64,000 bases of DNA from Thalassia testudinum. Its lineage: Eukaryota > Streptophyta > Magnoliopsida > Alismatales > Hydrocharitaceae. The stretch spans positions 92,482,001 to 92,546,000 of the forward strand of contig JAZHRO010000073.1 in assembly GCA_037157565.1 (NCBI GenBank), written 5' to 3'. Under the pieces are notes generated by a model that was not told the DNA's origin, did no database searches, and was given only the letters and a program-made list of their open reading frames with translations. The position numbers and the translations under genes are program-made. Below, piece by piece: positions 20,265-63,594 of this stretch (position 1 is its first letter; each line of letters begins with the position of its first letter).

Positions 20265-21939
20265 TGACCGAGTCGATCTTTCGCTTTTAAGTCGTTTGTA
20301 GTTTAATGTGGTGGAAAAATCGACTAATCAATTTTTAACAAGAAATAACCACTCGCAGAGGAGCGGGTCGTTTCCACAGGGAGACAATAACGTATTAAAA
20401 TTCGCGCCACTTAAAAATGTTTGTTCGGAGTCAATTTGGACAAGAACCAAGCCAAGATTGCCTTTAGATTAAGGTTTAAGCAAGAAATAATGCTGAAATG
20501 GCAATTATGAGAAACTACAGGATATTTTCCGCAATGCAGAGTGAATAGAATATGAATAAAATCTGGCAATGGCAGAAAATGTAAATTTTAATCAACGTTT
20601 TACTGTAGCAAAACAGGGGAATTGTTCCCCGTTGTCTTGCGCGACGAGGAGCCGATGGTCGGGCACGGGAAGCTCGGAGGAGGTCCCTTGGATCAAGGGC
20701 TTCGAATCGGTGGTGGCGGCGAGTCGCGCGGCGGTCGGAGGTGGCCGGACGAGCTCCGGCGGAGGTGCTGCAGGGGTGGCTGCTGCGGCTGGCGTGTGCG
20801 GTGAAGTGAGCGGTGGTCGGTTGGGCGGTCTGCAGATGGCTGTGCGTGGGCGCGCGGAGGGTCTGCTGAGGGCGCTGGCGCGCGGAGGCGTGGCTGCGGT
20901 GGTCTGCAGGCGCGGGGAAGAGGGCGTGTGTAGTGAGGCGTGTGCGGGACTGCTGGCGAGATGGCGTAGGGGGGTGGTTCTGCAGGTGCTGTTGCAGATG
21001 GTGGGGCGCGCACTGCAGTCGGTGCGGGAAGGTGCTGTGGGTGGACTTCAGACGGGTGCGCCGGTGGTTGCACATGGAGATGGCGAAGGCTGCAGGCGCA
21101 GGGAAGGTGGCGTGAGCGGCCGTGAGGGCTGGAGGTTGTGCACGCCTTGCATGCGGTTGGAGATGAGCGGGCTGCTGCGGCGTGGGTGGTGGAAGTGAAG
21201 TGAGAGGACGGAGATTGCTGCTGGAGTGGGGGTGGACTTCAGACGTCCGGGAAATTTCCCGGACGTCTTAAGTGACTGAAAGGGTGATTTCACAGTGGCT
21301 CGGCGGTGGTGGTTGGTGACGACGGCGAGGGAGATGCACGCTGATGTGCTCACGGTAATGCGGGCGAGCTCCGGATGGCGGTGTGGCCTGTCACACCACA
21401 CGCCCACGGTGGTGGAGACTCGCCGCCACGGTAGAGGCCGGCAGTGTGGAGTGGAAGAGAGTGGTTCTCTCTGCACAGTGGTGGGTCGGTGGCGGAGGCC
21501 TTCTGAGCTCGGCTGCCTCCGTGCTCCTTTTGTAGTGTCTTGAACAATTTTGAAATCAGCCGCCGACCAGATCCACCACATCCGCTCCCCCTTGAATGGC
21601 TTCATCACTGCAGCAGCCGGGCGTTGGAGCGGCAGCCAGTCGTTCTGAAAGAAGACGAATAAAGAAAATATTATTAAAATATTAGGGTTATTTATGTATA
21701 GACCCTCAACTTCTATGTTAATAAAAACAATATACCTAATTGGTTATCTAATTAGATGAATGCTATTCTAAGCTAATTCTAAATGCACTTAAGATATGAA
21801 TGCAATGTATGGATTATGTAATTAGATTAAAACTATGAATTAATCTATTTACATCCTAATTTATACTAAATAAATGTTAGAATTAACCTAATGTGTAGGC
21901 ACTTAAATACTTAAATATCCCACAACTATGGGCTAATCA
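20265..21939 (-). repeat. 3' LTR of element C
   Basis: 1675 bases; on minus it starts TGATTAGCCCATAGTTGTGG and ends GACTCGGTCA. It has AT-rich ends and a very GC-rich core (about 20640-21540). A perfect 28-base palindrome lies at 21241-21268 (arm AGACGTCCGGGAAA). The TATA-like sequence CTATACATAAATAACC (minus) is near 21685-21700. A plus-frame ORF at 20569-21198 is antisense to transcription, and a minus ORF at 21608-21048 (186 codons) is LTR sequence present in both LTRs. Confidence 0.9.
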
Positions 21940-21978
21940 AATACCCCCATGCCTAGTTTTTGCTAGTCCCTAGCAAAA
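21940..21978 (-). promoter_or_regulatory. PPT and PPT-proximal hairpin of element C
   Basis: On the minus strand TTTGCTAGGGACTAGCAAA (a hairpin with GGGA/GGA loop) is followed at once by AACTAGGCATGGGGGTATT and the LTR start. The same module stands before the 3' LTRs of D and J, with a weaker form in B. Confidence 0.8.
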
Positions 21979-23050
21979 TTAAGCGAAACCTAGCACTCTA
22001 AGTAGACTAGTCAACTCACTTAGTCTTCCTTCAGAAGCATATTAAGTTCAGGTTCTAAACCCAAGGTTCCTAAGCAGTTGCTAAGTTACAGACTAGGTCG
22101 GCTAAAGACGAGTTGCAAGCACAAGTTTCCTTGATTTCTGACTCTACCCTAAAGTTTATTGATCCCTGAGATTAAAGCATCCGTGCTTTTGCATTGGTCC
22201 GAGTTATTTGAGTTAAAGGGATTTTTTTTTTTTTTTAATATATATACCTTTTTTTTTTTTTTTTTTTTATTCTTCTAAGTCTAACCTCAGATCAGCTATC
22301 AACACGGTATGTGTCGGATTCATTGTCCCCATTACCATACCTCGAAGGGTGCCTGGCTTTCGATGCTTCGAGATAGCACCGCCCATAACGACCCCAAGAA
22401 CTCCTGGCAATCGACACTTCGAGATAGTATCGCCCATGGATTTCTTAAGCGAATTCAGGCCTATGGCAATCGGCACTTCGAGATAGGGCCGCCCATGGTA
22501 CCTGAACCGCGCAATGCGCTTACATGCCCCCAGTAGGATGGATATCCTAAGAGACAAGCGCTGAGGAGGTAATATGTTATCATCGCATCCTCAAGGTGAG
22601 TATATACTCGACCTCTCCTGCGGCGGGAACTCTTCCAATCAAAATGTGTTTTCAAGCCTCTCTTAAGCCAAAACTAAGAGAACCAAATCTCTTTTCAGAA
22701 ATTAAGTTAATTACCAGACCAAGTGTGAAAAATTTGGATGCTTGGGTTACAAGGACCCGTAAACCAAAAGGTAGAATAAGACTCCAGGTACTACCCCACC
22801 TTTTAACTCAAACCCTAGCTTCCCTTCCTCAACCTCTTGAAGAATGGTCCGCAACTTAACTCCTACTTAAGTTTTTAAGTCCACAGAGGACCCTAAAGGT
22901 CTAAAGCTAGTAGCTTATTTAGCTTCTAAAGTTTGACCCTAGAATTAATTTAGTCTACGCTAGAGTTCTGATTTGCTTAAGAATGCAGGACTTAGCCAGT
23001 TAAGCTCAAAACTTTTTTTTTTTTTATATGTACAAATGTATGCAATTATG
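21979..23050 (-). other. 3' region of element C with three-unit stem-loop array
   Basis: No protein gene seen. On minus, the region after the ORF has GAGTTCCCGCCGCAGGAGAG (near 22612-22632). Three tandem units of about 50-60 bases follow, at about 22441-22500, 22391-22440 and 22350-22390. Each contains CTATCTCGAAG (or a close form) inside a GGCG...CGCC or GGCGAT...ATTGCC stem. The array ends in a GTGTTGATAGCTGATCTGAG stretch. Poly(T)/poly(A) runs lie near 22223-22268. Confidence 0.75.
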
Positions 23051-25048
23051 CTATGTATATCCCCAAGTACACCCCCCCATGCCTAAAATCTGCAATGTCC
23101 TCATTGCATAGAAGGATATTACCTGGGTCAAAGCTGGGCTGAATAGCCGAAGAACCTGCAAATAAGGTTCAAGAATTGCAGAAATAGGCCCTAAAAAGGA
23201 GCAAAGCAAAGTTGGCCTAGAAAATAGGTAACCTAGGATGTTGGCGAGCTGATGATGAATCCCGATAACAAATGCTCGCCCAACTAAAATGGGAATGAAA
23301 TCTTCCCAGGTCACCAGAAGAGGTTCTAAAGGATAAACAGTTAAAATAACCTCCAAAGGGGTAGGGGTAGGATGACAAGGATCCTCCAAAAAGAATGGGG
23401 AAGGAATGGTATAGAGATAAACCCCCAGGGTAATGGACTGACTAAAGAAATCATCAATCCATACCCGATACTCCATTACAGAAAATATTGGTCTGTTAAG
23501 CCCCCTAGTCAGAACAAAAATGAGCAATTCTCTAAGGCAAGGATCGTCTAGGGTGTCCAAGTTACGAGGTTGTGGGATGGCCATAAGATCTAGGTTGGGT
23601 TTAATCAGCTTGGTGTCCATCCCAAACACTCTTTCTAAATCCTCAATTTCATCCCTAACATTCCTTGCACCATCACGTGGATCTTCCTGCTCTTCATCAG
23701 GAGTCACAATTTCACTTTCAGATATAAGAGAATCAGAGGGTGACTTCGAAGTGAATGAAGGCAGGTTGGAAGCAACAGATCTAGGGATTATCCTATTAAT
23801 GTCATCCCCGGGTTTTTGTTCTTTACTCAAATCTTCCTCGGAGTCTATATGTGAATCCACATAAATCTTAGAAATTGCTTCCAAATTTTCCATCATTTTA
23901 TCATGAGGAGAAATATCATCAATGGGTGTGCCAAGGAAACCTAATTTGGTCAAATTTGTGACATCCTCAGGGGCTAACTCTTCAAATAAGACATAATCAC
24001 CCTTAGTGTCACTCCAAATCTTGAATGTAGGTTCCTCATATAATTCGTCTTCCTCCTCATCACACAATTCATCATGTACCCGAGGTCTAGAATCATTTAA
24101 TATCTCAGCAGATCCCCTAGGGTGCTCTATCTGAGGTAAATTATTTACATTGGTTACATCAGACTCCTCAGATAGGTCAATTTCTTTAGGGTTAGGTTCC
24201 CTAAGGGTGGGTTTGAGTTCCATATCGTGATCAGAAGGGAGGGTAGGATTAACAACTTGACTTTGACCCACTTCATCAAATGTCACAAAAATACTATCAT
24301 CTGGGTCGAGGTCTTCCAATGGTACCATCATTCCCTTCTTTTGACTCCAATATAATTCAGGTGGATACTCAACCTTATCATCATCTTCCTCGGGTTGCCA
24401 CCTTTCTTCATCCAATGCATAGCTACTTTCATGTGTATTTTCCTCCCACCTAAAGTGTAGATCTCTCAAGGAAGTGTCATCTAATGGGGAGGTTTCAAAA
24501 TCGATCCTCGAAAAGTAGCTATTCTCCCCAGAATTTCCCTTCAACTTAAAGTGTAGCTTTCCCACGGGAGATGAATCTATTGTAGAGGGGTGTACGTCAT
24601 CATCAATGGGGCAGATTGGGTGGCTAATTTCATCTCTTTCTTGTTGGCCTGCTCTCAAAGATTCTCCTAACAATTCACTCATTTCATTTTGCATTTTCTG
24701 TATTTCCATCTTCAAAGAGGAGAGGTCATTTCTATCATAAGAGAAGTCAGGCTCAGGCTTATAGTACCCAGGAGTGTTTGTCCAACCATTATAAGTTTTC
24801 AGGGAGGGTGGGTTGGGTATTTCTTTGGTATGTGGGATATTGGGCAAAGCAAATCCCTCTCCTGAGTTCTGCTCACTAATTTGGGGCTTAACTAGGCCAA
24901 TACTCCTATAATAGGAGTAAAACGGATCCCAATGATTGTCATTATGTCCATCAAGGAATGGACCATCTCGGCGTCTGGGATCGAAGGATGTAGAGTGGGG
25001 GTGAGGGTGTGGGCAAGATGTGAAAGGATGAAAATCAATGTGGTCCAT
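23051..25048 (-). CDS. Unknown 665-residue acidic protein of non-autonomous element C
   Basis: I do not recognise a family. The frame is open for 665 codons from ATG at 25048, with a homologue of about 89% identity by eye in element D. Seen in order: a His/Pro-rich start (HPHPHPH, residues 14-18); aromatic-rich residues 40-105; a short predicted coiled coil (107-128, SLKMEIQKMQNEMSELL); and a long acidic middle (140-460). Two copies of a roughly 30-residue motif W-S-x-x-KG-x-x-V-x-(L/F)-E-(D/E)-L-x-P-(D/E)-D lie at 231-261 and 341-370. A C-terminal third (505-650) is rich in hydrophobic residues. No gag capsid, CCHC knuckle, DLGAS protease, FMDD or integrase motif is present. The end of the frame runs into the internal polypurine motif (residues MRTLQILGMGG). 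A role in RNA or particle binding would be pure inference. Confidence 0.8.
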   Translation of the reverse strand: MDHIDFHPFTSCPHPHPHSTSFDPRRRDGPFLDGHNDNHWDPFYSYYRSIGLVKPQISEQNSGEGFALPNIPHTKEIPNPPSLKTYNGWTNTPGYYKPEPDFSYDRNDLSSLKMEIQKMQNEMSELLGESLRAGQQERDEISHPICPIDDDVHPSTIDSSPVGKLHFKLKGNSGENSYFSRIDFETSPLDDTSLRDLHFRWEENTHESSYALDEERWQPEEDDDKVEYPPELYWSQKKGMMVPLEDLDPDDSIFVTFDEVGQSQVVNPTLPSDHDMELKPTLREPNPKEIDLSEESDVTNVNNLPQIEHPRGSAEILNDSRPRVHDELCDEEEDELYEEPTFKIWSDTKGDYVLFEELAPEDVTNLTKLGFLGTPIDDISPHDKMMENLEAISKIYVDSHIDSEEDLSKEQKPGDDINRIIPRSVASNLPSFTSKSPSDSLISESEIVTPDEEQEDPRDGARNVRDEIEDLERVFGMDTKLIKPNLDLMAIPQPRNLDTLDDPCLRELLIFVLTRGLNRPIFSVMEYRVWIDDFFSQSITLGVYLYTIPSPFFLEDPCHPTPTPLEVILTVYPLEPLLVTWEDFIPILVGRAFVIGIHHQLANILGYLFSRPTLLCSFLGPISAILEPYLQVLRLFSPALTQVISFYAMRTLQILGMGGCTWGYT
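23070..23107 (-). promoter_or_regulatory. Internal polypurine motif of element C
   Basis: The minus strand reads CAATGAGGACATTGCAGATT then TTAGGCATGGGGGGG. It sits at the ORF end and about 1.1 kb before the terminal PPT. It is shared with D (45151-45187) and J (62274-62310), and in weaker form with B (10179-10215). Confidence 0.7.
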
Positions 25049-26302
25049 TCTAACTCACACTTCAATCAGAATTCCCCAAGCAAGACACAATTCAAAAAGG
25101 ACCTTTTAGGTCTTTCCCAATTTAGGCTTTTGATTTTAAGTCAGATTGTAGGTGACAATACAATTTGTTCAATCAATTTACGCGCCTATTATCGACCTAC
25201 GGTTCGCCTAAGAAGACCTAGTTGGAGCTTAGGTGTTCTTCCCTAAATCTCAAATGGTCAAGTAAATCCAAAGACGAAAGATCGAGGGATGCAAGCAAGC
25301 TTAAGCCTTCCTTTGAAGCTGTGAATTCGCGGTGCTCCGCAACTACCCCCAAAAATCCGTGACAGGGTATCCCCCTCTTTGGACTTGCAAAACCTTTGAT
25401 CTAAAGTTCCGAACACTTCAGAATCCAATGAAAGGAGGACTCTTGTCCTAGTATTTCCAAACCTAAGGAGTGTCTAGAAGTGTGCCGTGATGCAAGTGAA
25501 ATAAGTGTGCATACACCGTAAAAGATTTTGAACTTTGAATCGCACACCAAGTTTGAAAATCAAATCCTTGGTTTTTAAAATGTCCTTCCTTTAATTAGTA
25601 CTTTTTCTAAAAAAATGTGACCACTTGTTAGATTTATTCAGTACAGATTAGGTGGTCTTCGCATTAAATCCTAAATGCAATGCGTGATCAAAAATAAGAT
25701 GCAAAGTAAGAGAATGCGTACCTTGCCTCCAGCGATCTACGATGCAAGAATGCACGCAATGCAGAAAAGTAAATCTAGAGGCTGCTCATACAGACCTAAA
25801 TGGTTCGTCCTAGGGCAGGCAGCTTCTAGCAGGCAGCTCATTTTTTTTTCTTTTTCTATTTTTTTTTAGAACTACTTATGCACAAGCAAATAAAAGAAAT
25901 AATAATAATAAAAAAAATAAACCTAAATCTAAAGAAAAGGGAACAGGCTCCCAAAAATTACCCAACACGGGTCCAAAACAAAATCTGGGAACAAACCCCT
26001 CAAAATTTGCCCCAGAACAAGGGTTTCAAACTAACTGTAATGAAAAATTAAGTCTTCAGTCTTAATTCTATTCCAATTAAATTAGCGATTAAATACAGTG
26101 GTGTCCGTCGCGTCCTCGTCCTTCTCCTCCTTTCAAAATTGCTTGTCCACTTCTCGTCTGGCGACGTCAAGGGTCGCCTCTCACAGTGGTTGATTCTTGC
26201 ACAAAATTTCTCGCACAGAAAAGAAAATAATAGATGGTCAAATCTCTGTGCAATTGACAAATAATCAAAATAAAATTAGGCAAAATTATTACGTCTGTTG
26301 CC
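25049..26302 (-). other. 5' leader of element C with PBS-proximal hairpin
   Basis: No gene seen. On minus, about 125 bases after the PBS, lies GGCGACCCTTGACGTCGCC (26160-26178), a 6-bp perfect stem, also present in D at 42102-42120. The remainder aligns with the leader of D. The 110-codon frame seen in D (42708-43040) is not open here, so it is unlikely to be a gene. Confidence 0.7.
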
Positions 26303-26320
26303 TCCCCGGCAACGGCGCCA
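26303..26320 (-). promoter_or_regulatory. tRNA-Asp primer-binding site of element C
   Basis: On minus a perfect TGGCGCCGTTGCCGGGGA, the complement of the 3' end of plant tRNA-Asp including CCA. It abuts the 5' LTR. This is the priming site for minus-strand cDNA. Confidence 0.93.
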
Positions 26321-26321
26321 T

Positions 26322-27997
26322 TAGACCGAGTCGATCTTTCACTTTTAAGTCATTTGTAGTTTAATGTGGTGGAAAAATCGACTAATCAATTTTTAACAAG
26401 AAATAACCACTCGCAGAGGAGCGGGTCGTTTCCACAGGGAGACAATAACGTATTAAAATTCGCGCCACTTAAAAATGTTTGTTCGGAGTCAATTTGGACA
26501 AGAACCAAGCCAAGATTGCCTTTAGATTAAGGTTTAAGCAAGAAATAATGCTGAAATGGCAATTATGAGAAACTACAGGATATTTTCCGCAATGCAGAGT
26601 GAATAGAATATGAATAAAATCTGGCAATGGCAGAAAATGTAAATTTTAATCAACGTTTTACTGTAGCAAAACAGGGGAATTGTTCCCCGTTGTCTTGCGC
26701 GACGAGGAGCCGATGGTCGGGCGCGGGAAGCTCGGAGGAGGTCCCTTGGATCAAGGGCTTCGAATCGGTGGTGGCGGCGAGTCGCGCGGCGGTCGGAGGT
26801 GGCCGGACGAGCTCCGGCGGAGGTGCTGCAGGGGTGGCTGCTGCGGCTGGCGTGTGCGGTGAAGTGAGCGGTGGTCGGTTGGGCGGTCTGCAGATGGCTG
26901 TGCGTGGGCGCGCGGAGGGTCTGCTGAGGGCGCTGGCGCGCGGAGGCGTGGCTGCGGTGGTCTGCAGGCGCGGGGAAGAGGGCGTGTGTAGTGAGGCGTG
27001 TGCGGGACTGCTGGCGAGAGGGCGTAGGGGGGTGGTTCTGCAGGTGCTGTTGCAGATGGTGGGGCGCGCACTGCAGTCGGTGCGGGAAGGTGCTGCGGGT
27101 GGACTTCAGACGGGTGCGCCGGTGGTTGCACGTGGAGATGGCGAAGGCTGCAGGCGCAGGGAAGGTGGCGTGAGCGGCCGTGAGGGCTGGAGGTTGTGCA
27201 CGCCTTGCATGCGGTTGGAGATGAGCGGGCTGCTGCGGCGTGGGTGGTGGAAGTGAAGTGAGAGGACGGAGATTGCTGCTGGAGTGGGGGTGGACTTCAG
27301 ACGTCCGGGAAATTTCCCGGACGTCTTAAGTGACTGAAAGGGTGATTGCACAGTGGCTCGGCGGTGGTGGTTGGTGACGACGGCGAGGGAGATGCACGCT
27401 GATGTGCTCACGGTAATGCGGGCGAGCTCCGGATGGCGGTGTGGCCTGTCACACCACACGCCCACGGTGGTGGAGACTCGCCGCCACGGTAGAGGCCGGC
27501 AGTGTGGAGTGGAAGAGAGAGGTTCTCTCTGCACAGTGGTGGGTCGGTGGCGGAGGCCTTCTGAGCTCGGCTGCCTCCGTGCTCCTTTTGTAGTGTCTTG
27601 AACAATTTTGAAATCAGCTGCCGACCAGATCCACCACATCCGCTCCCCCTTGAATGGCTTCATCACTGCAGCAGCCGGGCGTTGGAGCGGCAGCCAGTCG
27701 TTCTGAAAGAAGACGAATAAAGAAAATATTATTAAAATATTAGGGTTATTTATGTATAGACCCTCAACTTCTATGTTAATAAAAACAATATACCTAATTG
27801 GTTATCTAATTAGATGAATGCTATTCTAAGCTAATTCTAAATGCACTTAAGATATGAATGCAATGTATGGATTATGTAATTAGATTAAAACTATGAATTA
27901 ATCTATTTACATCCTAATTTACACTAAATAAATGTTAGAATTAACCTAATGTGTAGGCACTTAAATACTTAAATAGCCCACAACTATGGGCTAATCA
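26322..27997 (-). repeat. 5' LTR of element C
   Basis: 1676 bases, about 99.3% like the 3' LTR by eye. It holds the same perfect 28-base palindrome (27299-27326) and GC-rich core. The start shows TAGACC rather than TGACC, a one-base change at the terminus next to the PBS. The promoter used by the element should be the TATA-like sequence near 27743-27758 (minus). Confidence 0.92.
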
Positions 27998-40286: not shown

Positions 40287-41961
40287 TGATTAGCCCATAT
40301 TTGTGGGCTATTTAAGTATTTAAGTGGCTAGACATTAGGTTAATTCTAACATTTATTTAGCATAAATTAGGATATAAATAGATTAATTCATATTTCTAAT
40401 TTAATTACATAATTCATGCATCTTATTCATATTTAAATGCATTTAGAATTAACTTAGAATTGCATTAGTTAACTAAGTAGGTACATTGCATGCATTAATT
40501 TAGGCTAACATAAAAGTTGAGGGTTTGTATATAAATAACCATAATATTTTATCATTATTTTTTATTCTTCTTCTACGTGCAACGGCTGCATTTCTTCCTC
40601 CAGCTGCTACAGTGAAGAACCCAATCAAGGAGGAGCGGATGTGTTGGACCTAGTCGGCCAGCTAATTTCAAAAGAGAGGAGGAGGCAGCCGAGCTCAGAA
40701 GGCCACCACCCCAACTATCCACACTGTGCAGAGAGTCCATCTCATCCATTTCACCACCGCCGACCTCAACCACGGCGATGAGCCTCCACCACCGTGGGCA
40801 TGTGGTGTGACAGGCCACACCGCCATCTGGAGATCGTCCGCATTACCGTGAGCACCTTCCCGTCCACCTCCCTTACCGTCGTCACCAACAACCACTGCCG
40901 CAGCCACTACAATTTCACTACTCAACCAGTTAAGACGTCCGGGAAGTTTCCTGGTTATCTAAAGCTTCGACCCCCCCACTCTAGCAGTAACCACACTCCC
41001 CCACTTCACCTCCAGCACCAACCGCCTACCCTCGCCCGCTCACCTGCAGCACCAACCCCGCGCGCGCTCACCTGAATTGCCAACCCTCACCTGCTCACTC
41101 CACACCCGCATCACACCTCCAGCACTAACCGCCAGCACCCTGCAGTGCACGCGCCTACAGCCTCCCCGCCGCTACCTGCAGTGCTGCACCAGTGCATGTG
41201 CACACTCACCTGCAGCGCCAAGCCCACGCTCACCAGTAGCCTACAGCAGCGCCAAGCCAGCACGTCTGCTCCAGCGCACCCACACCTTCCGCCTGCAAAG
41301 CATCTCCGCCAACAGCAGCGCACCCCACTTCCGCCTGCAATGCCTCCAGCAATGCATGAGGAATCAATGCACGCAACAATAGGCCGCGCGCACCGCCCGC
41401 AAGCAGCCTTCGTGCATGCACAGCTGCCCCTTCAGCAGCTACCTCCTCCGTTGGCAGCCACCTTCACCAGAGCTCCGTCCGGTCGGCTCCGACCACCGCG
41501 CAACTCGCCGCCACCACCGCTGCGAAGCCCTCGGTCCAAAGAACTTCCTCCGAGCTTCCCGCCTCCGGCCGTCCACTCCTCTTCACGTGTGGCCAAGGGG
41601 AATAAATCCCTTATTTTGCTACAGTATTCATGCCATTAATAATTACATTTTCTTCCATTGTCATCTTTTAATGATATTTTATTGAATCTTCATTGCAAAA
41701 AATATCCTCTAGTTATTAAGAATTGCTATTTCAGCATGATTTCTTGATTTAAACTTAATCTGAAGGCAAATTTGGCTTGATTCTCGTCTAAACTAACTAC
41801 GAACAAACATTTTTAACCGGTGCAAATTTAAATACGTCATTGCCTCCCTGTGGATATGACCCGCTGTTCTGCGAGTGGTTATTTCTTTTTAAATATTGAT
41901 TAGTTGATTTTTCCACCACATAAAACTATAAACGACTTTAAAGTGAACAAACGACCCGTCA
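40287..41961 (+). repeat. 5' LTR of element D
   Basis: 1675 bases, TGATTAGCCCA...CCCGTCA. The TATA box TATATAAATAACC is at about 40527-40540, so U3 is only about 240 bases and most of the LTR is R/U5. The GC-rich core (about 40600-41600) holds several overlapping frames with low-complexity Pro/Ala/Ser products that I do not call genes. The palindrome seen perfect in C (around 40942) is decayed here. Confidence 0.9.
40527..40540 (+). promoter_or_regulatory. TATA box of element D 5' LTR
   Basis: TATATAAATAACC, conserved in the 3' LTR (about 46568-46581) and, as TATACATAAATAACC, in element C. It fixes the transcript start about 30 bases downstream. Confidence 0.6.
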
Positions 41962-41964
41962 AAA

Positions 41965-41982
41965 TGGCGCCGTTGCAGGGGA
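41965..41982 (+). promoter_or_regulatory. tRNA-Asp primer-binding site of element D
   Basis: TGGCGCCGTTGCAGGGGA, one mismatch (C to A) to the tRNA-Asp complement, three bases after the LTR end. Confidence 0.9.
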
Positions 41983-43209
41983 GGCAACAAACACAATAAT
42001 TTCACCTAATTTTATTTTGATTATTTCTGAACTGCACAGTGATTTGACCATTTATTATTTTTCTGTGCAAGAAATTTGTGCAAGAATCAACCATTGTGAG
42101 AGGCGACCCTTGACGTCGCCAGAGGAGAATTGGTCGAGCTACTTTGAAAAGGAGGAGAAGGATGAGGACGTGACGGTCATCATTGTACATTTAGTCGCTA
42201 ATCTGATTAGAGTAGAATTAAGACTTTAGATTTAATTTTTCATTGCATTTGGTTTGAAACCTTGTTCTGGGGTATATTTTGAGGGGTTTGTTCCCCGATT
42301 TTGTTTTAGGCTCGTGTTGGGTAATTTTTGGGAGCCTGTTCCCTTTTCTTTAGATTTAGGTTTTTAGTTTATTGATTACTTTTATTTTCTTGTGAATTAG
42401 TTTTAAAAAAAAAAAAATGAGCTACCTGCTAGAAGCTGCCTGCCCTTAAGACAAACCATTTAGGTCTGTATGAGCAGCCTCTAGATTTACTTCTCTGCAT
42501 TGCGTGCATTCTTGCATCGTTGATTGCTGGAACAAGGTACGCATTCTCTTACTTTGCATCCTATTCTTGATCACGCATTGCATTTGGACTTAATGCAAAG
42601 ACCACCTAATCTGTATTGAATAAATTAAACAACTGGTCACATAGTTTCTAGAAAAAGGACTAATTAATGGAGGGACATTTTAAAAACCAAGGATTTGATT
42701 TTCAAACTTGGCATGCGATTCAAAATTCAAAATCTTTTGCGGTGTATGCACACTTATTTCGCTTGCACCACGGCACGCTTTTAGACACTCCTTAGGTTTG
42801 GAAATACTAGGACAAGAGCCCGCCTATCGTTGGATACTAAAGTGTTCGGAACTTGAGATCAAAGGTTTTGTAAATCCAAAGAGGGGGATACCCTGTCACG
42901 GATTTTTGGGGGTAGTTGAGAAGCACCGCGAAAGCACAGCTTCAAAGGAAGGCTTAGGCCTACTTGCATCCCTTGATCTTCCGTCTTTGGAGTTGCTCTA
43001 CCATTTGAGATTTAGGGAAGAACACCTAAGCTCCAACTAGGTCTTCTTAGGCGAGCCGTAGGTCGACAAGAGGCACGTAAATTGATTGAATAAATTGTAT
43101 TGTCACCTACAATCTAACTTAAAATCAAAAGCTTAAATTGGGAAAGACCTAAAAGGTCCTTTTTTAATTGTGTTTTGCTTGGGGAATTCTGATTGAGGTG
43201 TGAGTTAGA
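41983..43209 (+). other. 5' leader of element D with PBS-proximal hairpin
   Basis: About 1.2 kb. Hairpin GGCGACCCTTGACGTCGCC lies at 42102-42120, as in C. A 110-codon frame (42708-43040, MACDSKFKIFCGVCTL...) is open here but not in the younger copy C, so I treat it as chance. No other gene seen. Confidence 0.7.
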
Positions 43210-45237
43210 ATGGACCACATTGATTTTCATCCTTTCACATCTTGCCCACACCCTCACCCCCACTCTTCATCCTTCGATCCCAGACGCCGAGATGGTCCAT
43301 CCCTTGATGGACATAATGACAATCATTGGGATCCATTTTACTCCTATTATAGGAGTATTGGCCTGGTTAAGCCCCAAATCAGTGAGCAGAACCTAGGAGC
43401 GGGATTTGCTTTGCCCAATATCCCACACACCATAGAAATACCCAACCCACCCTCCTTGAAAAATTATTATGGTTGGATAGACACTCCTGGGTACTATAAG
43501 CCTGAGCCTGACTTCTCTCATGATAGAAATGACCTCTCCTCTTTGAAGATGGAAATACAGAAAATGCAAAACGAAATGATTAAATTGTTAGGAGAATCTT
43601 CGAGAGCAGGCCAACAAGAAAGAGATGAAATTAGCCACCCAATCTACCCCATTGAGGATGATGTACACCCCTCTACAATAGATGCATCTCCTGTGGGAGA
43701 GCTACACTTTAAGTTGGAGGGAAATTTTGGGGAGAATAGCTACTTTTCGAGGATCGATTTTGAAACCTCCCCATTAGATGACACTTCCTTGAGAGATCCA
43801 CACCTTAGGTGGGAGGAAGATACACATGAAAGTAGCTATGCATTGGGTGAAGAAAGGTGGCAACCCGAGGAAGATGATGACAAGGTTGAGTATCCACCTG
43901 AATTATATTGGAGTCAGAAGAAGGGAATGATGGTACCATTGGAAGACCTCGACCCAGATGATAGTACTTTCGTGACATTTGATGAAGTGGGTCAAAGTCA
44001 AGTTGTTAATCCTACCCTCCCTTCTGATCACGAGATGGAACTCAAGCCCACCCATAGGGAACCTAACCCTAAAGAAATTGACCTATCTGAGGAGTCTGAT
44101 GTTACCAATGTAAACTATTTACCTCAGATAAAACACCCTAGGGGATCTGCTGAGATATTAGATGATTTTAGGCCTCGGGTACATGATGAATTGTGTGATG
44201 AGGAGAAAGACGAATTATATGAGGAACCTACATTCAAGATTTGCAGTGACACTAAGGGTGATTATGTCTTATTTGAAGAGTTAGGCCCTGAGGATGTCAC
44301 AAATTTGACCAAATTTGGTTTCCTTAGCACAACCATTGATGATATTTCTCCTCATGATGAAATGATAGAAAATTTCGAAGCAACTTCTAAGATTTATGTG
44401 GATTCACATATAGACTCCAGGGAAGATTTGAGTAAAGAACAAAAACCCAGGGATGACATTGATAGGCTAATCCCTAGATCTATTGCTTCCAACCTGCCTT
44501 CATTCAGTTCGAAGTCACCCTCTGATTCGCTTATATCTGAAAGCGAAATTGTGACTCCTGATGAAGAGCAGGAAGATACATGTGATGGTGCAAGGAATGC
44601 TAGGGATGCAATTGAGGATTTAGAAAGAGTGTTAGGGTTGGACATCGAGCTGATTAAACCCAACTTAGATCTTATGGCCATCCCGCAACCTTGTAACTTG
44701 GACACCCTAGACGATCCTTGCCTTAGAGAATTGCTCACTTTTGTTATGACCGGGGCGCTTAACAAACCAATATTTCCCGTAATGGAGTATCGGGTATGGA
44801 TTGATGATTTCTTTAGTCAGTCCATTACCTTGGGGGTTTATCTTTGCACCATTCCTTCCCCATACCTTTTGGAGGATCCTTGTCATCCTCCCCCTACCCC
44901 TTTGGAGGTTGTTATACTTGTTTATCCTTTAGAACCTCCTCTGGTAACCTGGGAAGATTTCATTCCCATCTTAGTTGTGCGAGCATTTGCTATCAGGATT
45001 CATCATCAGCTCGCCAACATCCTAGGTTACCTATTTTCTAGGCCAACATTGCTTTGCTCATTTTTAGGGCTTTTTTCTGCAATTCTTCAACCTGATTTGC
45101 AGGTTCTTTGGCTATTCAACCCAGCTCTGACCCAGGTAATATCCTTCTATGCAATGAGGACATTGCAGATTTTAGGCATGGGGGGTGTACTTGGGGATAT
45201 ACATAGCATAGTGCATTCATTGCATACATTTGCATAA
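43210..45237 (+). CDS. Unknown 675-residue acidic protein of non-autonomous element D
   Basis: Homologue of the ORF at 25048-23051. The same start MDHIDFHPFTSCPHPHPHS, the coiled-coil stretch, the acidic middle, both W-S-x-x-KG-type repeat motifs and the hydrophobic C-terminal third are all present. About 70 of 665 positions differ by eye, yet there is no stop or frameshift until the last codons. There, one fewer G in the polypurine run shifts the frame, so D ends VLGDIHSIVHSLHTFA where C ends CTWGYT. An ORF that stays open across copies of different age suggests it is used by the element. The family is unknown to me; gag, protease, RT and integrase motifs are absent. An envelope-like or accessory role cannot be told from sequence alone. 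Confidence 0.82.
   Translation: MDHIDFHPFTSCPHPHPHSSSFDPRRRDGPSLDGHNDNHWDPFYSYYRSIGLVKPQISEQNLGAGFALPNIPHTIEIPNPPSLKNYYGWIDTPGYYKPEPDFSHDRNDLSSLKMEIQKMQNEMIKLLGESSRAGQQERDEISHPIYPIEDDVHPSTIDASPVGELHFKLEGNFGENSYFSRIDFETSPLDDTSLRDPHLRWEEDTHESSYALGEERWQPEEDDDKVEYPPELYWSQKKGMMVPLEDLDPDDSTFVTFDEVGQSQVVNPTLPSDHEMELKPTHREPNPKEIDLSEESDVTNVNYLPQIKHPRGSAEILDDFRPRVHDELCDEEKDELYEEPTFKICSDTKGDYVLFEELGPEDVTNLTKFGFLSTTIDDISPHDEMIENFEATSKIYVDSHIDSREDLSKEQKPRDDIDRLIPRSIASNLPSFSSKSPSDSLISESEIVTPDEEQEDTCDGARNARDAIEDLERVLGLDIELIKPNLDLMAIPQPCNLDTLDDPCLRELLTFVMTGALNKPIFPVMEYRVWIDDFFSQSITLGVYLCTIPSPYLLEDPCHPPPTPLEVVILVYPLEPPLVTWEDFIPILVVRAFAIRIHHQLANILGYLFSRPTLLCSFLGLFSAILQPDLQVLWLFNPALTQVISFYAMRTLQILGMGGVLGDIHSIVHSLHTFA
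45151..45187 (+). promoter_or_regulatory. Internal polypurine motif of element D
   Basis: CAATGAGGACATTGCAGATT leading into TTAGGCATGGGGGG, inside the last codons of the ORF. Same motif in C and J. Confidence 0.7.
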
Positions 45238-46006
45238 AAAAAAAAAATAGTTTTGAGCTTAACTGGCTAGATCTTGCAGTCTTAAGCAAATCAGAACTCT
45301 AGGGTAGACAAAGTTAATTCTAGGGTCAAACTTTAGAAGCTAAATGAGCTACTAGCTTTAGACCTTTAGGGTCCTTTGTGGACTTAAAAACTTAAGTAGG
45401 AGTTAAGTTGCGGACCATTCCTCAAGAGGTTGAGGAAGGGAAGCTAGGGTTTGAGTTAAAAGGTGGGGTAGTACCTGGAGTCTTGTTCTAGCTTTTGGTT
45501 TACGGGTCCTTGTAACCCAAGCATCCAAATTTCACACACTTTGTATGGTAATTAACTCAATTTTTTTCTTTCTGAAAAGAGATTTGGTTCTCTTAGTTTT
45601 GACTTAGGAGAGGCTTGAAAACACATTTTGATTGGAAGAGTTCCCGTCGTAGGAGAGGTGGAGTATACACTCACCTTGAGGATGCGATGATAACATATTA
45701 CCTCCTCGATGCTTGTTTCTTAGGATATCCATCCTACTGGGGGCATGTAAGTGCATTGAGCAGTTCAGGTACCATGGGAGGCCCTATCTCGTAGTGCCGA
45801 TTACCATAGGCCTGAATTCGCTTAAGAAATCCATGGGCGATACTATCTCGAACTGTCGATTGCCAGGAGTTCTTGGGGTTGTTATGGACGGTGCTATCTC
45901 GAAGCATCGAAAGCCAAGCACCCTTCGAGGTATGGTAATGGGGACAATGAATCCGACACAGACCGTGTTGATAGCTGATCTGAGGTTAGACTTAGAAGAA
46001 TCAAAC

Positions 46007-46039
<33 letters not shown>

Positions 46040-46312
46040 AAACTTTTTCCTTTAACTCAAATAACTCAAACCAATGCACAGGCATGGATGCTTTAATCTC
46101 AGGGATCAATAAACTTTAGGGTAGAGTCAGAAATCAGGGAAACTTGTGCCTGCAACTCTCTTTAGCCGACCTAGTCTATAACTTAGCAACTACTTAGGAA
46201 CCTTGGGTCTAGAGTCTGAACTTAATATGCTTCTGAAGGAAGACCAATTGGGTTGACTAGTTAACTTGGAGTGCTAGGTTTCGCTTAATTTTGCTAGGGA
46301 CTAGCAAAAACT
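45238..46312 (+). other. 3' region of element D with three-unit stem-loop array
   Basis: No gene seen. GAGTTCCCGTCGTAGGAGAG (45640-45659) is followed by three units of about 55 bases at about 45771-45815, 45829-45870 and 45885-45930. Each carries CTATCTCG(A/T)A in a GGCGAT...ATTGCC type stem, ending ACAGACCGTGTTGATAGC (45957-45974). The PPT-proximal hairpin TTTGCTAGGGACTAGCAAA is at 46290-46308. An (AT)n microsatellite lies at about 46009-46026. Confidence 0.75.
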
Positions 46313-46327
46313 AGGCATGGGGGTATT
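46313..46327 (+). promoter_or_regulatory. Terminal PPT of element D
   Basis: AGGCATGGGGGTATT directly before the 3' LTR; primes plus-strand cDNA in this class of element. Confidence 0.85.
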
Positions 46328-48018
46328 TGATTAGCTCATATTTGTGGGCTATTTAAGTATTTAAGTGCCTAGAGATTAGGTTAATTCTAACATTTATTTA
46401 GCATAAATTAGGATGTAAATAGATTAATTCATATTTCTAATTTAATTACATAATTCATGCATCTTATTCATATTTAAATGCATTTAGAATTAACTTAGAA
46501 TTGCATTAGTTAACTAATTAGGTACATTGCATGCATTAATTTAGGTTAACATAAAAGTTGAGGGTTTGTATATAAATAACCATAATATTTTATCATTAAT
46601 TTTTATTCTTCTTCTATGTACAACGGCTGCATTTCTTCCTCCAGTTGCCACAGTGAAGAACCCAATCAAGGAGCGGATGTGTTGGATCTGGTCGGGCAGC
46701 TGATTTCAAAAGAGAGGAGGAGGCAGCCGAGCTCAGAAGGCCACCACCCCAACTATCCACACTGTGCAGAGAGTCCATCTCATCCATTTCACCACCGCCG
46801 ACCACAACCGCGACGACGAGCCTCCACCACCATGGGCGTGTGGTGTGACAGGCCACACCGCCATCTGGAGATCGTCCGCATTACCGTGAGCACCACGCCG
46901 TCCACCTCCCTCGCCGTCGTCACCAACAACCACCGCCGCAGCCACTGCAATTTCACTCCTCAGCCAGTTAAGACGTCCGGGAAGTTTCCCGGATGTCTGA
47001 AGCTTCGACCCCCCCACTCCAGCAGCAACCACACTCGCCTACTTCACCTCCAGCGCTAACCGCCTGCCCTCGCCCACTCACCTGCAGCAACAAGCCCGTG
47101 CGCAATCACCTGATCCGCCAGCCCTCACTCGCTCACTCCACGCCCGCATCACACCTCCAACACTAACCGCCAGCACCATGCAATGCGCGCGCCTTCCGCC
47201 TGTAGCGCCTCCACCAGTGCGCACGCCTACAACCTCCCTGCCGCTACCTGCAGTGCCGCACCAGTGCGTGCATGCACTCACCTGCAACGCCAAGCCCACG
47301 CCTGCCAGCAGCCTGCAGCAGCGCCAAGCCCGTGCGTCCACTCCAGCGCACCCGCACCTTCCGCCTACAAAGCATCTCCACCAATAGCAGCGCACCCCGC
47401 TTCTGCCTGCAGCGCCTCCAGCAGTGCGCGCAACAATAGGCCGCGCGCACCGCCCGTAAGCAGCCTTCGTGCGTGCACAGGCGCCCCTTCAGCAGCTGCC
47501 GCCTCCGTTGGCAGCCACCTTCACCGGAGTTCCATCCGGTCGGCTCCAACCACCGCGCGACTCGCAGCCACCACCGCTGCGAAGCCCTCGGTCCAAAGAA
47601 CTTCCTCCGAGCTTCTTGCCTCCGGCCGTCCACTCCTCTTCACGCACGGCCAAGGGGAATAAATCCCCTGTTTTGCTATAGTATTCATGCCATTAATAAT
47701 TACATTTTCTGCCATTGTATTCTTTTAGATGTATTTTATTGAATTTGCATTGCAAAAAATATCCTCTAGTTATTAAGAATTGCTATTTCAGCATGATTTC
47801 TTGATTAAACCTTAATCTGAAGGCAAATTTGGCTTGATTCTTGTCTAAACTAACTACGAACAAACATTTTTAACCGATGCGAATTTAAATACGTCATTGC
47901 CTTCCTGTGGATACGACCCACTCTTTTGGGAGTGGTAATTTCTTTTTAAATATTGATTAGTCGATTTTTCCACCACATAAAACTACAAACGACTTTAAAG
48001 CGAACAATCGACTCGTCA
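46328..48018 (+). repeat. 3' LTR of element D
   Basis: 1691 bases. It matches the 5' LTR with about 4% substitutions and small indels (for example a 3-base gap near 46667). The GC-rich core includes a half-decayed copy of the C palindrome near 46972-46998. Confidence 0.9.
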
Positions 48019-49571: not shown

Positions 49572-49625
<54 letters not shown>

Positions 49626-52795: not shown

Positions 52796-53720
52796 TGATG
52801 AGAACCTCATCATGAGCCATAACTAGCTCATTTTGACCCAATACAAAGGATAAAAGCTCCTACATATCTCAAGGAAAAGCTTAACTCAGAGAATTCTGAG
52901 TTTGAGAAGAAAACAAGTCATAAGGGGTAAAAGTGCAATTTTACCAGTATAATCTGCATACAGGGTAATTCAGGGCCCAAACATAGGTCAAAACAGCTTA
53001 ATAAGAATAAAAGTGGGATGAGATGATCTAGCAAGGGCTACAGCACTTCCAAGGAACCAAATGATAATCTGTAACCCTAAAACAACCCACTTCAATTCAC
53101 AAGGTTCGAGGCAAAGTAAAAATAGAATAAACCCTCTAAAATTCATAGAAAAATAATCTCTGGGGTTTAGAACCATCAATTTGGCCTTTAGAACCCATTT
53201 TGACCTACATTGAGAACCATGCCCAATTAATAACTTAATTTGGGTTTTTGCGCAAATTGACCGGTCAAACAAGGTTTAATATGAAAATAAAATTCACCAT
53301 CAGATTCCTTAGGTCCTAATTAGTCATGTATAAAAACTTGAGCCTAAGAAGAAACCTCCTTGACCGACTTCACACTTTGGTCCTCATATATTTACTCTTT
53401 GGCCCTCAACTTTTGAACCCTCGCATTTTGGCCCCTAACTCTTCTTCGTTCTTTGCAAACAGGTCCCTCCTGCAAAACCCTGCCAGCACCATGCTCCGGC
53501 GACCTTGCGCGGAGCATGGCGCCGCGCAGGGTGAGGTGGGGGACCTGGCAAGTGTACCGGGGGTGCCCTGCGTCGTCAGCCGTCGCAGGAGCACCCCCAT
53601 GGTCACTGTAGCCCCCCATACCGGCCGTGCGAACGCACGGACGGTATGGGTTCGTATTCCGACCATTCTCCGGCGAGGGAGACACGTCGTCTCCCTCCGC
53701 CTTCCTCCCTGCTTCAACCC

Positions 53721-53730
53721 TATAAATACC
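53721..53730 (+). promoter_or_regulatory. TATA box of element J
   Basis: TATAAATACC after a pyrimidine-rich stretch. Predicted transcript start near 53750, giving a leader of about 2.7 kb before gag. Confidence 0.65.
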
Positions 53731-54967
53731 CCCCGCCGCTCCACCGACGAAGGCAGCCTGGACCTGACGGAGAAAACCCCCAGCTTTCTTCTCTTCTTTC
53801 TCCGGCAGACGCTCACCAGCTCCGGCGACTTCCTCCCCCTCCACCTCTTCGCTCTGCCGCACTACCAGCAGCAGAGACCTCCTCCCCTGCTCTTCCCGCG
53901 CCACGCCGCACCCAGCTGGCGCCTCTCCAGCCTTCTGCTCGCCGCCGCCCCTCTCCCTGAGCATCGTCTTCTCCGGCGACAGTCGATACGACTGTCGCCC
54001 TGTTCCTCCCCCTTCGTCCCTGCAGTTAAGTTAGACTTACTCCCCTTCTTCTCCTCTTTCTTTCCCCGCTTTCGATTTAGTCAATTAAGCCCTCTACCGA
54101 CCCTGTTCACCCTCATCCTCTCCGCCTCCGACCACCCTCCGGCGAGCCGCTCCCATCACCTCAGCGACCCACACGGCTCGCCGACTACCGCAGAACCTCC
54201 GCCTCCTCACCCTGATCCTCTTCCGCCCCTCCACTTCCCACCAAACACCCTCTGCAGACCCACCGAACACACCCACTCCCTCGGTCACAGTTTGACCTAG
54301 GACGACCTAACAGCTCCATCTCGCCCCCTGCAGACCCCCTGACCACCTTCGCCGTGCCACGGCGAAGGTCCCCCGCCTGTGTGATCTGGCCGAGAGGCCG
54401 TGCCATTGGTTTCAGGTTCCAGGCCTTGACCGCCATTGGCGAGGAAGCTCGAAGCCTGCTCGAGGTTGCTCCAAGCCGAGATATCCCAGGTTGAATAGCC
54501 ACGGCCAGCGCGGAAGAGTCTCACGCACACACCCTGGCCCTCGATTGGAGCTGTACGCCTCAACAGCCGATGCAATTGGGAGCACCATCCCTGCTGCAGG
54601 CGTAAGAGAATTGGGGTGGGACATTTAGTCCCACCTCGGAATCTCTCAAAGGCGCGCGGATGCATAAAGGCAAAAACTGCCTTATGCTGTTTGCCTCAGT
54701 TACCACGGGGTGAGGTCCCTCTCACCCGACCCGACCCGACTCGGCCTCGTCCGTGACCACGCTCCGCGGACCTGGCCCGACCCGATTAGACTGACCTGCA
54801 CTCCTCGCCCACCACGCACGCCGGTGGGCCTGGACCCGGGCCTGACCCGAACCCGATTACCCGGTAGCGCTCTGGGAGAGCTTCCGAAGAGTGATTTCAG
54901 AGAGAGAGATACGCGGGGGAGGGGGGTAGAGTAGGTTTTTGCCTTGACGAATAAACTCTGAAGTGTG

Positions 54968-55320
54968 CAGGCCAAAGAAGAAGAAGAAGACCCGCTGAAG
55001 AAAAAGGAAGAGCAACAGCCATCGCGAAAGAAGAAAAAGAGAGGTCAAGGCAGGTGAAGACAAAGCAGAAGAAAGAGAAGCAAGAAGCAAGAAAAGAAGA
55101 AGACGATCTGACGAAAAAGAAAGAAAGGAAACAAGGAAGAACAGAAGAAGAGCACGAGGGGAAAATCTGAAGAAAGCAGAAGAAAAAGAAGAAGAAGAAG
55201 AAGAAGAAGAACAGGAAGAACCAAAGACAAAGAGGAAGATCTGAAGAAAGCAAAGAAGAAGAAGAAAGAACAGGAAGAACCAAAGACAAAGAGGAAGAAA
55301 GAAGAAAAGAAGAAGAAGCC
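54968..55320 (+). repeat. GAA-rich purine tract in U5 of element J
   Basis: About 350 bases almost entirely A and G, with (GAA)n runs up to nine units near 55183-55210 and two near-identical blocks ending AACAGGAAGAACCAAAGACA. Frames on the opposite strand (poly-Ser/Leu/Phe) are a by-product. Confidence 0.9.
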
Positions 55321-55515
55321 AAATTTTCATCTCTCTCTCTCTTTATTTTTGTAATAGAACTTGTATATCTCTAGAATACAACTTGCTCCCTGAGTTCGAC
55401 CTCGGGAACTCTTTTATTTTTCCGAGTAAAAAATTTTATATGAAAACGTTGGTAACAACCGGCTTTACTACAACGATATAACCGAAACCGGTCGACAAAC
55501 TAACGCTTATCATTT

Positions 55516-55533
55516 TGGCGCCGCTGCCGGGGA
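55516..55533 (+). promoter_or_regulatory. tRNA-Asp primer-binding site of element J
   Basis: TGGCGCCGCTGCCGGGGA, one mismatch (T to C) to the tRNA-Asp complement, three bases after the LTR end. Confidence 0.9.
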
Positions 55534-56438
55534 GCAACGGCTAATTCTAGAGGTAAACATTCCTGTATCTTTTAATTTCTGATAATCTCCTCTCTTTTGT
55601 GCAGCTACAGGAACTCAAGAAGACAAGCAACCACACGACAACCACTCCGAAGACAGGTAAATCTTTTCTCTCACTATTAACCCCTACACTCTAAAGAGAA
55701 AGAAAAGAAAAGAACAAGCAATATAGGGCTAACCTGTCTTCCATATTTAGTAACCATAAAAGTTGCATGTTTTCAACTCATTATTTCTGCACACTATCAA
55801 GGGTATTTAAGGGCTAACACATTCTTGCTTGAGCCCTAATTACCCAACAAAGAATTAACTGGACCAAGTAGAGCCAACCTAGGATCCAACACTAGGGATT
55901 TAGAGACACACTACTTAACTCAAGAATTGAGAAAACCAAATAAAGTGTGCCCAAGCCCTTGTCTGAAAATACCTATACAAGAAAAATCCTAAACAATTGG
56001 CTCTCTCTAAACACTTGAACCCTAAAAGACAGGACCTAAAAGCTCTTAAAGAAAACAATAGGTAAAGTTGACCCCTTGGGTTAACCAACCTTAAATTAGG
56101 TCACTCTTTGCACTTAAAAAGACTAAAGTTCAAGTGAAACCTTAAGCACCCTGATCTTAAAATTGGTAGACTTAAGAGGTCAAGATCCCCATTCTGGTCT
56201 ACCTGGAACCGCAGTGACAAGAGAGGTCGGGTGGGGGAAACCCTGTAACCCGTGGGGACGCTCTACCGTGTAGGGGTCTTCGCGGGACTCTCCCTCTCTG
56301 GCTGCCCAGGTAATTCTCAGGTGGACGATCTTTCTGATCAAGGGGTCCATCTGCCCCGCACCTCTATAGTCACCCAACACATTTTTGGGTGTCTTGATTG
56401 GGTCCATCACCTTCTAAACTTACCTCTCCCAACTGTGC
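55534..56438 (+). other. 5' leader of element J, no gene seen
   Basis: About 0.9 kb, A-rich in the first half. No frame with recognisable motifs. It ends at the gag ATG in CATGTACGGAAGG. Confidence 0.7.
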
Positions 56439-62138: not shown

Positions 62139-63581
62139 GCTTATTGCGCCCAGCCGATGGCGTAAAACTCAGCGCTTAACGGGAGGCAGCCCGTCATTCT
62201 CTTTGAAAACCTGAAACTTGTTCTGACACCTTTCAGCACTCGAAGTTCACCCTGAACTAAGACCCCCTAGGTTACAATGAGGACATTGCAAATCTTAGGC
62301 ATGGGGGGGTAGGAAAGTGCAAAAACTTGTAAGAAAAGGTTTCAAACAAAAAAATTCACATATGCCAAAAATACCATAAAAATTAAAAAAATTTTTTCGA
62401 AAAAGAATAAGAGGAAAAGAGGAGAAGAAAAATTTCGTGAAGGAGAGAAGAAACAAAATGAAAAAGGAGCACAAAATTATAAGAAAAGTTGATAGTCATT
62501 AGTAAGGAACTAAGGAATTAACCTAAGTTCTAGACCTCATTCAAGAAAATAACTGAAAAGTGCACAATGAGATTAGTAAGAATGCAAACCTTAGGCATTC
62601 TTGAATAGACTCTTAGTACTCATTAAGATCTGGACACTCCTCAAGAGGTTGAGGAAAATGAAAAGCTGAAGTATTAGGTCTAAGGCTTAGGGAGTATTCG
62701 GCCTCGTTAACTAATTTTTGGTTTACGGGACTCAGTAACCTAAGCACCCTAATCTCACACACAGCCTGGTTCAGTAAGCGTAAAAATCAGAATCACGCAG
62801 AAGCGTCGCAAAAATCTGAAAAGAACACCTAGAATAGGAATGGCCGATCAACACAAGTTGATTTGGACGAGTTCCCAGCGCGGAGAGGCGGGAAATCCCC
62901 TCGAAGATGCGTAACAAAATATCATCTCCTCGGTGCTTGTCTCTTAGGATATTTACATATCCTACGGGGGGCATGTAAGCACTCTGCTGGTTCAGATTCC
63001 ATGGATGGCATTATCTCGAAGTGTCAATTGCCAGGGTCTGGATTCGGCCACGGAATACCATGGATGGGATTATCTCGAAATCTCAATAGCCAGGGTTCCG
63101 GGGGTTGCCATGGGCGGTGCTATCTCGAAGCATCGATCGCCAGGAACCCTTGAGGATTGATGATGGGAGCAAGGAATCTGATACAGACCGTGTTGAAAAG
63201 CCAATCCTAGACTAGAACTAAAAAGAAAAAGAGAGAGAAAACTCTCCAAACAGAAAAAACTTTCTATCTCTCTCTTACAAAACGCACTGCGAACTGAGCC
63301 AGGGCTAAAATCATTTCAAGCACGGGTGCTTTAACCACGAAGTCCAATAAACCTTAGGTTAGTTCTTGTGGGCCTTAAAAACCTTTGCTAAAAGACTGAG
63401 GCTAAGGCTAGACAGATTTGGATCTTGATTGGTACTAGAGTATCTTTTAGGCCTATGGTCAGCATTCTAACCTAATCTATGCTCAAATAAAAAGGCACTT
63501 ATCTAAAACCATTGAAAACTTCATGGTCTAGAACAAGGGTTGAAACCTTAAGTTTTTTTTGCTAAGGGACTAGCAAAAGCT
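62139..63581 (+). other. 3' region of element J: internal polypurine motif, three-unit stem-loop array, PPT hairpin
   Basis: About 1.46 kb with no envelope-like or other gene. The motif CAATGAGGACATTGCAAATC leading into TTAGGCATGGGGGGG is at 62274-62310. GAGTTCCCAGCGCGGAGAGG lies at 62870-62889. A three-unit array lies at about 62999-63155, each unit with TATCTCGAA in a stem (TGGCA...TTGCCA; GGCGGT...ATCGCC), ending ACAGACCGTGTTGA (63183-63196). The hairpin TTTGCTAAGGGACTAGCAAA is at 63558-63577. The same pieces in the same order are in C and D. Confidence 0.8.
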
Positions 63582-63594
63582 AGGCATGGGGGTA
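63582..63594 (+). promoter_or_regulatory. Terminal PPT of element J
   Basis: AGGCATGGGGGTA directly before the 3' LTR start TGATGAG at 63595. Confidence 0.85.

Follow-up and report, generated by a model that had tools for sequence, protein, structure and literature searches.

Two elements with one long reading frame

The DNA examined here is a 64,000-nucleotide stretch of the Thalassia testudinum genome (assembly GCA_037157565.1, contig JAZHRO010000073.1, positions 92,482,001 to 92,546,000 of the forward strand), called the window below. It contains two long terminal repeat (LTR) retrotransposons, C and D, each with one long open reading frame (ORF) between its leader and 3' region, and a separate gag-pol element, E (Table 1). 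C and D lie exactly where an initial annotation, made from the sequence alone, had placed two complete elements of 7.73 kb, C on the minus and D on the plus strand. Both have paired LTRs with TG..CA ends, a 5-bp target-site duplication (TSD) on both sides, a primer-binding site (PBS), and a polypurine tract (PPT), GGCATGGGGGTATT, which directly adjoins the 3' LTR. The PBS is of the tRNA-Asp type that characterizes Athila-type elements; the window holds seven PBS-like sites with at most three mismatches, against 0.01 expected, and the 18-mer was assigned to tRNA-Asp after passages of two earlier reports (PMC9744471 and PMC1142308). The LTRs that the annotation called matching do form pairs, except that the final base of the C 5' LTR is unlike that of the 3' LTR. 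No gag, protease, reverse transcriptase (RT), or integrase was detected in C or D by Pfam, by tblastn with the E gag-pol, or by hhalign, as the annotation had claimed, and both elements are thus non-autonomous.

Table 1. Positions of elements C, D, and E and of their parts in the window
Feature	Position	Strand	Remarks
Element C	20265..27997	-	LTR pair, TSD TTGAG, PBS, PPT; young
C 5' LTR, ~1675 bp	26323..27997	-	99.3% identity to C 3' LTR
C PBS, tRNA-Asp type	26303..26320	-	0 mismatches to tRNA-Asp-type 18-mer
C leader, ~1.27 kb	25049..26322	-	Between 5' LTR and frame
C payload, 665-aa ORF	23051..25048	-	Acidic, no family recognized; appears to stand in gag-pol's place
PPT-like motif (CAATGAGGACATTG..GGCATGGGGG)	23073..23106	-	Payload 3' end; coordinates derived from element positions
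C 3' region + PPT, ~1.1 kb	21940..23050	-	95% to one gag-pol relative
C 3' LTR	20265..21939	-	LTR pair comparison
Element D	40287..48018	+	LTR pair, TSD GTATT; older copy, same payload, different LTR
D 5' LTR	40287..41961	+	89.4% to D 3' LTR, 72% to C LTR
D PBS	41965..41982	+	1 mismatch to tRNA-Asp-type 18-mer
D payload, 675-aa ORF	43210..45237	+	88% protein identity to that of C
D 3' LTR	46328..48018	+	LTR pair comparison
Element E	52796..64000	+	LTRs 99.93% over 2717 bp, PBS 55516, TSD ATGAG; separate gag-pol family, presumably Athila-type
E gag-pol	56439..62138	+	Single open frame, 1899 codons; Pfam gag, protease, RT, RNase H, integrase

The LTR divergence of C corresponds to an age of about 0.25 million years (Myr) at 1.3e-8/site/yr, a rate given in a passage of PMC9744471 that may not suit this host plant. 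Identity within the LTR pair of D is uneven, falling from 97% at the start to about 85% midway and rising to 92% toward the end, and the alignment has many gaps, unlike that of the D ORF with the C ORF, which has almost none. The D LTRs are possibly converted or mosaic, and the age of D is therefore unsure. Both C LTRs contain a 38-nt near-perfect palindrome (27294-27331 and 21236-21273), which is also found in many relatives and in the D 3' LTR; the region folds as RNA at -26.7 kcal/mol.

The frame and its protein

The single acidic frame of 665 codons in C and 675 in D was found as first described, and the C protein has 122 aspartate and glutamate residues against 54 lysine and arginine residues. 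The open stretch measures 667 codons, whereas the longest in 1000 Markov sequences of internal-region length was 244; a frame of this length is not a chance product. At its 3' end the ORF reads through a conserved PPT-like motif with about its final 17 codons, and a single-base change in a G run there makes the C and D frames end differently. The same motif is present 3' of pol in E and in the three gag-pol relatives examined there; a literature search on a second PPT gave nothing useful. The C protein contains an internal repeat of an acidic/WS..KG motif with a score of 69; none of 200 shuffled C sequences scored as high, and the best score of D's own protein is 57.

No credible match to the protein was found in Pfam, PDB, a collection of 5.8 billion proteins, or Athila-type gag-pol, in agreement with the initial view that it belongs to no recognized family. 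In Pfam at E values up to 1, the C protein gave only a match at 0.37 and the D protein none, and the best PDB E values were an unconvincing 0.068 (single-sequence query) and 0.31 (profile query). The word-based search of the 5.8 billion proteins returned nothing at an E value of 0.001 or below among 7933 candidates and nothing at 10 or below among 7989 scored. Plant retroelements are present in this collection, because the E gag-pol used as a positive control matched 286 relatives there, many from plants; the named ones among the 120 listed come from eudicots and one Carex, with none from wheat or barley.

A diverged gag or pol was considered as the identity of the ORF and rejected, as BLASTP, tblastn, and hhalign were all negative. 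The 1899-aa gag-pol of E reached C and D in tblastn with a best E value of 0.54, located in the LTR. The profile check against Athila-type gag that the annotation had proposed gave an hhalign probability of 0.1% when the ORF profile, a shallow one (Neff 1.09), was compared with an alignment of 14 Athila-type gag-pol proteins. The transmembrane segment expected of an envelope-like protein was not found by Kyte-Doolittle analysis, with no 19-residue hydropathy window above 1.6. Structure prediction gave a mean pLDDT of 29.6 for the whole protein and 38.9 for the C-terminal 210 aa, a low confidence that is probably due to a shortage of diverse relatives. We found no description of the 665-aa protein in the literature searched, where word searches cannot exclude one.

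Gag-pol sisters with the same LTRs

All copy searches were made in the 4.26-Gb assembly containing the window. With the C 5' LTR as query, 40 of 6612 candidates were scored and LTR pairs were assigned from their coordinates. This gave 15 pairs: 10 at about 6.1 kb (C included), 4 at 9.64 to 9.65 kb, and 1 at 7.57 kb. A further 10 LTRs had no partner among the matches listed, and one of the ~6.1-kb pairs has a broken LTR. The ORF is present at one or both ends in 9 of the 10 short pairs, the tenth lying outside the examined set.

The four long pairs lie at C57:11595024, C6:38384177, C4:30635555, and C70:75671518, and three of them were examined, at both ends only. In these three elements, similarity to C covers the LTR and the leader up to element position ~2913-2918 and resumes at 4966; the PPT-like motif before position 4966 is alignable between C and these elements. 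All three have an integrase end with 53 to 60% identity to E. At the gag start, the protein similarity to E is weak, with 33% over 49 residues in one long-pair element and 31% in the 7.57-kb element; the other two long-pair elements align at the DNA level, in the same frame, with those that have this gag start. The 7.57-kb element, which carries a deletion, has 489 aligned RT-integrase residues in a stop-free stretch, and the pol pieces of the gag-pol relatives show 53 to 63% identity to E. The C 5' LTR is 98.3% identical, gaps excluded, to the LTR of one gag-pol relative. Between C and E the 3' region is alignable in part, at 70 to 75%, that of E being a distant relative of the C/D 3' region.

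Judged from the ends of these sisters, the C frame appears to occupy the position of gag-pol. The initial annotation had reasoned that gag-pol relatives with the same LTRs would reduce C and D to simple deletion products. Such relatives, with gag-pol ends, do exist, and a deletion derivative with a frame open by chance might have been suspected from them. C and D are not simple deletions, however, because an unrelated 2-kb block fills the place of gag-pol. The frame in that block has no detectable counterpart in the E gag-pol or in the 14-protein alignment, and its length is far beyond the simulated maximum given above; we give a chance origin by deletion practically no credence.

Two payloads on one chassis

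We compared young loci carrying the ORF with young loci carrying gag-pol, 11 versus 4 on the 5' side (the deleted 7.57-kb element among the 4) and 8 versus 3 on the 3' side. Between the two kinds, no column is fixed for different bases in the 5' LTR (0/1672), the 3' LTR (0/1671), or the 3' region (0/948). In the leader, 17 of 1200 columns are fixed for different bases, all of them 55 to 188 nt upstream of the ORF start codon, and at 16 of these 17 sites D agrees with the ORF type. ORF and gag-pol loci differ by 2.2 to 2.3% over the first 1100 leader columns, much as ORF loci do among themselves (1.8 to 2.5%), while in the last leader stretch the two values are 13.5% and 1.8%. The LTR tree, which was built without support values, intermixes both kinds and places D outside. 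The two ranges of LTR age overlap, being 0.25 to 0.84 Myr for seven ORF pairs and 0.43 to 0.84 Myr for three gag-pol pairs, the deleted one being 0.43 Myr.

Because the LTRs and the 3' region have no fixed differences and those in the leader are confined to the vicinity of the frame, the ORF and gag-pol appear to be two alternative payloads on one chassis. Moreover, D has the ORF behind an LTR that differs by 26 to 29% from both the ORF-type and the gag-pol-type LTRs, so the payload predates the present chassis.

Searches with the C and D proteins were used to collect further ORF copies; these lists hold only the best scorers, are biased to open frames, and are not copy counts. The best 67 of 33,996 candidates for the C protein are all full length and 98 to 100% identical, and 58 of them are stop-free. 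The best 66 of 34,334 candidates for the D protein are, D itself aside, 88 to 93% identical, and 58 of them contain stops. The frame is open in most of the best young copies and broken in most D-like copies, in lists that both favor open frames, which suggests that the source of the copies stayed open between bursts. In all 30 ORF loci examined from the best 67, the ORF is flanked by a C-type leader and 3' region, and pol upstream of the ORF was found in 0 of the 30. A gag-like match lies just past the 3' region of one locus (L016), outside the C-matching part. Two pairs of ORF copies on the same strand are 6.07 and 6.10 kb apart (G000:C41:43530113-43538173 and G000:C1:12479426-12487517), a spacing that would be expected of tandem elements with a common LTR.

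These data bear on the idea that the ORF is left over from a third gene, envelope-like or accessory, located between pol and the PPT-like motif, with C and D having lost gag-pol and the 9.64-kb relatives having lost that gene. The ORF does adjoin the motif found 3' of pol in E and the gag-pol relatives, and pol-less families with gag and env occur in Arabidopsis Athila according to the sections of PMC2410132 used here. Nevertheless, the lack of pol upstream of the ORF at the 30 loci, the absence of a strongly hydrophobic window, and the ~190 nt of upstream leader that travel together with the ORF make a third gene improbable.

Selection on the frame

A first estimate from 30 copies gave a selection ratio w of 0.30, apparently purifying selection, and 40 random pairs of these copies diverge by 0.9% in the ORF, with no gaps, versus 2.2 to 2.5% in the flanks. 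This evidence for purifying selection was set aside, as the 30 copies had been ranked by protein score. Copies chosen by their LTRs gave a w of 0.89 for 10 first parts, of which two contain a stop, and 1.02 for 7 last parts. Comparison of 30 young with 3 old copies yielded 43 fixed changes, 29 nonsynonymous (N) and 14 synonymous; in the absence of selection, 28.6 N would be expected. Uncorrected for the mutation spectrum, these changes give a w of 0.55, and with correction they fit neutrality; the set is small, two of the three old copies were chosen stop-free, and moderate constraint is possible. Purifying selection at the amino acid level was thus not detected in the LTR-chosen copies or the 43 fixed changes, and the initial description of a "dedicated" protein was not substantiated once the biased sets were put aside.

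The divergence between C and D is 5.5% in the ORF, 9.2% in the leader, and 7.0% in the 3' region. A test for the lack of stops gave a P value of 0.035 in one run and 0.011 in another, in which 2 of the 124 C-D changes, each taken singly, would create a stop; indels numbered 1 versus 16 (P = 0.0008). These frame tests are weakened by the fact that C and D were originally picked for their open frames.

A serious rival to a functional protein is that the frame was captured from a host gene or an unrelated virus and is open mainly because translation stabilizes or routes the RNA, the amino acids being irrelevant. This would account for 58 of the 67 best young copies being stop-free while nonsynonymous changes stay at their neutral expectation, and for the w values of the LTR-chosen ends. 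We regard it as a tentative alternative, since the fixed changes are few enough to leave room for moderate constraint, their uncorrected w is well below 1, the internal repeat hints at an organized protein, and the ORF diverges less than its surroundings between C and D. Most likely, the frame either encodes a real protein of unassigned activity or is kept open for RNA translation and stability.

Probable origin and mobilization

Taken together, C and D quite probably represent trans-mobilized, non-autonomous members of an Athila-type Ty3/gypsy family, a branch whose gag-pol has given way to an unrelated block. At about 2.2 kb, the replacing block would consist of the 665-codon frame and the final ~190 nt of the leader before it, and the kept parts would be the LTR, most of the leader, the PPT-like motif, the 3' region, and the PPT. 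The ORF elements would be transcribed from their own LTR, and we infer that their RNA is packaged by the Gag of the sisters and copied and inserted by the sisters' RT and integrase. Both kinds of RNA probably enter common particles, because template switching is the simplest way to keep the LTR, leader, and 3' region undifferentiated; such switching, as the sequence patterns suggest, would keep the chassis alike. High pairwise recombination rates during bursts are described for an Arabidopsis family in the portion of PMC5668417 considered here, and LTR transfer is proposed as a route to a new helper in wheat in a passage of PMC9744471.

Several points weigh against this interpretation. Gene conversion could have homogenized the chassis as well, and co-packaging and trans-mobilization are themselves read from sequence patterns. 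The gag-pol sample comprises only three or four loci, and the loci were picked by LTR similarity to C, which favors mixed LTRs; the leader and 3'-region results depend less directly on this choice. The 3'-region distance between the kinds (2.2%) is slightly larger than that within them (1.8% and 1.1%). One of the three integrase ends (C57) has an in-frame stop, and the 9.64-kb relatives are known from their ends only, with no intact gag-pol confirmed in the family.

A more far-reaching explanation, which we consider unlikely, is that the 665-aa protein represents a novel type of retrotransposon helper (acting, e.g., in packaging, assembly, or anti-silencing), encoded by an exchangeable cassette that persists beyond its LTR chassis and is propagated through template switching with gag-pol sisters. 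If so, payload and chassis would evolve as separate modules. Under the replaced-block interpretation favored here, the findings suggest that an unrelated long frame can persist in the place of gag-pol through more than one burst. Much of the sequence of large plant genomes consists of non-autonomous elements, which raises the question of how these keep up with their helpers. Within a single genome, young copies allow payload and chassis to be distinguished at single-base resolution, so that co-packaging and template switching become directly testable. Overall, the observation of the initial annotation is confirmed and its interpretation partly supported.

Neighboring elements

E is a very recent insertion, as its LTRs are nearly identical (Table 1); its 3' LTR starts at 63595 and extends past the window (locus L031). 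We take E to be Athila-type from its PBS and domain order. At 52319-52783 lies a gag match that stops just short of E, so E may interrupt another element. Next to C, 28755-31208 contains gag and protease matches with no adjacent RT or integrase match and is perhaps a semi-autonomous Athila-type element. An AT-rich tandem array with units of 6 to 20 bp lies at 49535-50016.

Comparison with known non-autonomous elements

Non-autonomous LTR elements with a PBS and PPT include the tiny TRIMs, the non-coding LARDs, and TR-GAGs, which keep gag. C and D differ from these in having one long, non-gag ORF. In soybean, LTR swapping of autonomous with non-autonomous elements, by which a non-autonomous interior is joined to a new LTR, was reportedly described by Du and colleagues in 2010 (Plant Cell 22:48).

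In the sections of Marco and Marin (2008; PMC2410132) that we compared, non-autonomous Arabidopsis Athila families retain gag or gag plus env, and purifying selection on these ORFs is reported. These families are like C and D in lacking pol, keeping an ORF, and recombining with other Athila elements. In contrast, gag is absent from C and D, and selection was not detected.

By description, the closest known kind is the Athila-type RLG_Sabrina_NA group of wheat and barley, in which, according to the parts of Wicker et al. (2021; PMC9744471) considered, gag-pro is replaced by unrelated coding segments. Four of the replacement proteins are stated there to have no homology to other wheat proteins, and two segments to be capsid-like in structure. 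C and D likewise are non-autonomous, have a tRNA-Asp PBS, and have an unrelated ORF for a coding block, the gag-pol relatives being known from their ends. The Sabrina replacement proteins are termed short in the same text, versus 665 aa in C, a comparison of descriptions and not of sequences. The likely Sabrina partner, RLG_Wilma, is said in these parts to share hardly more than the PBS, the LTR ends, and one LTR motif, whereas the gag-pol sister of C and D matches the LTR, most of the leader, and the 3' region without fixed differences. Replacement of a coding block in non-autonomous elements is thus already known from wheat, and the 665-aa protein is without a match in the searches made. What sets C and D apart from the known cases is that their frame is longer, gag is missing, and the gag-pol sister is closely similar.

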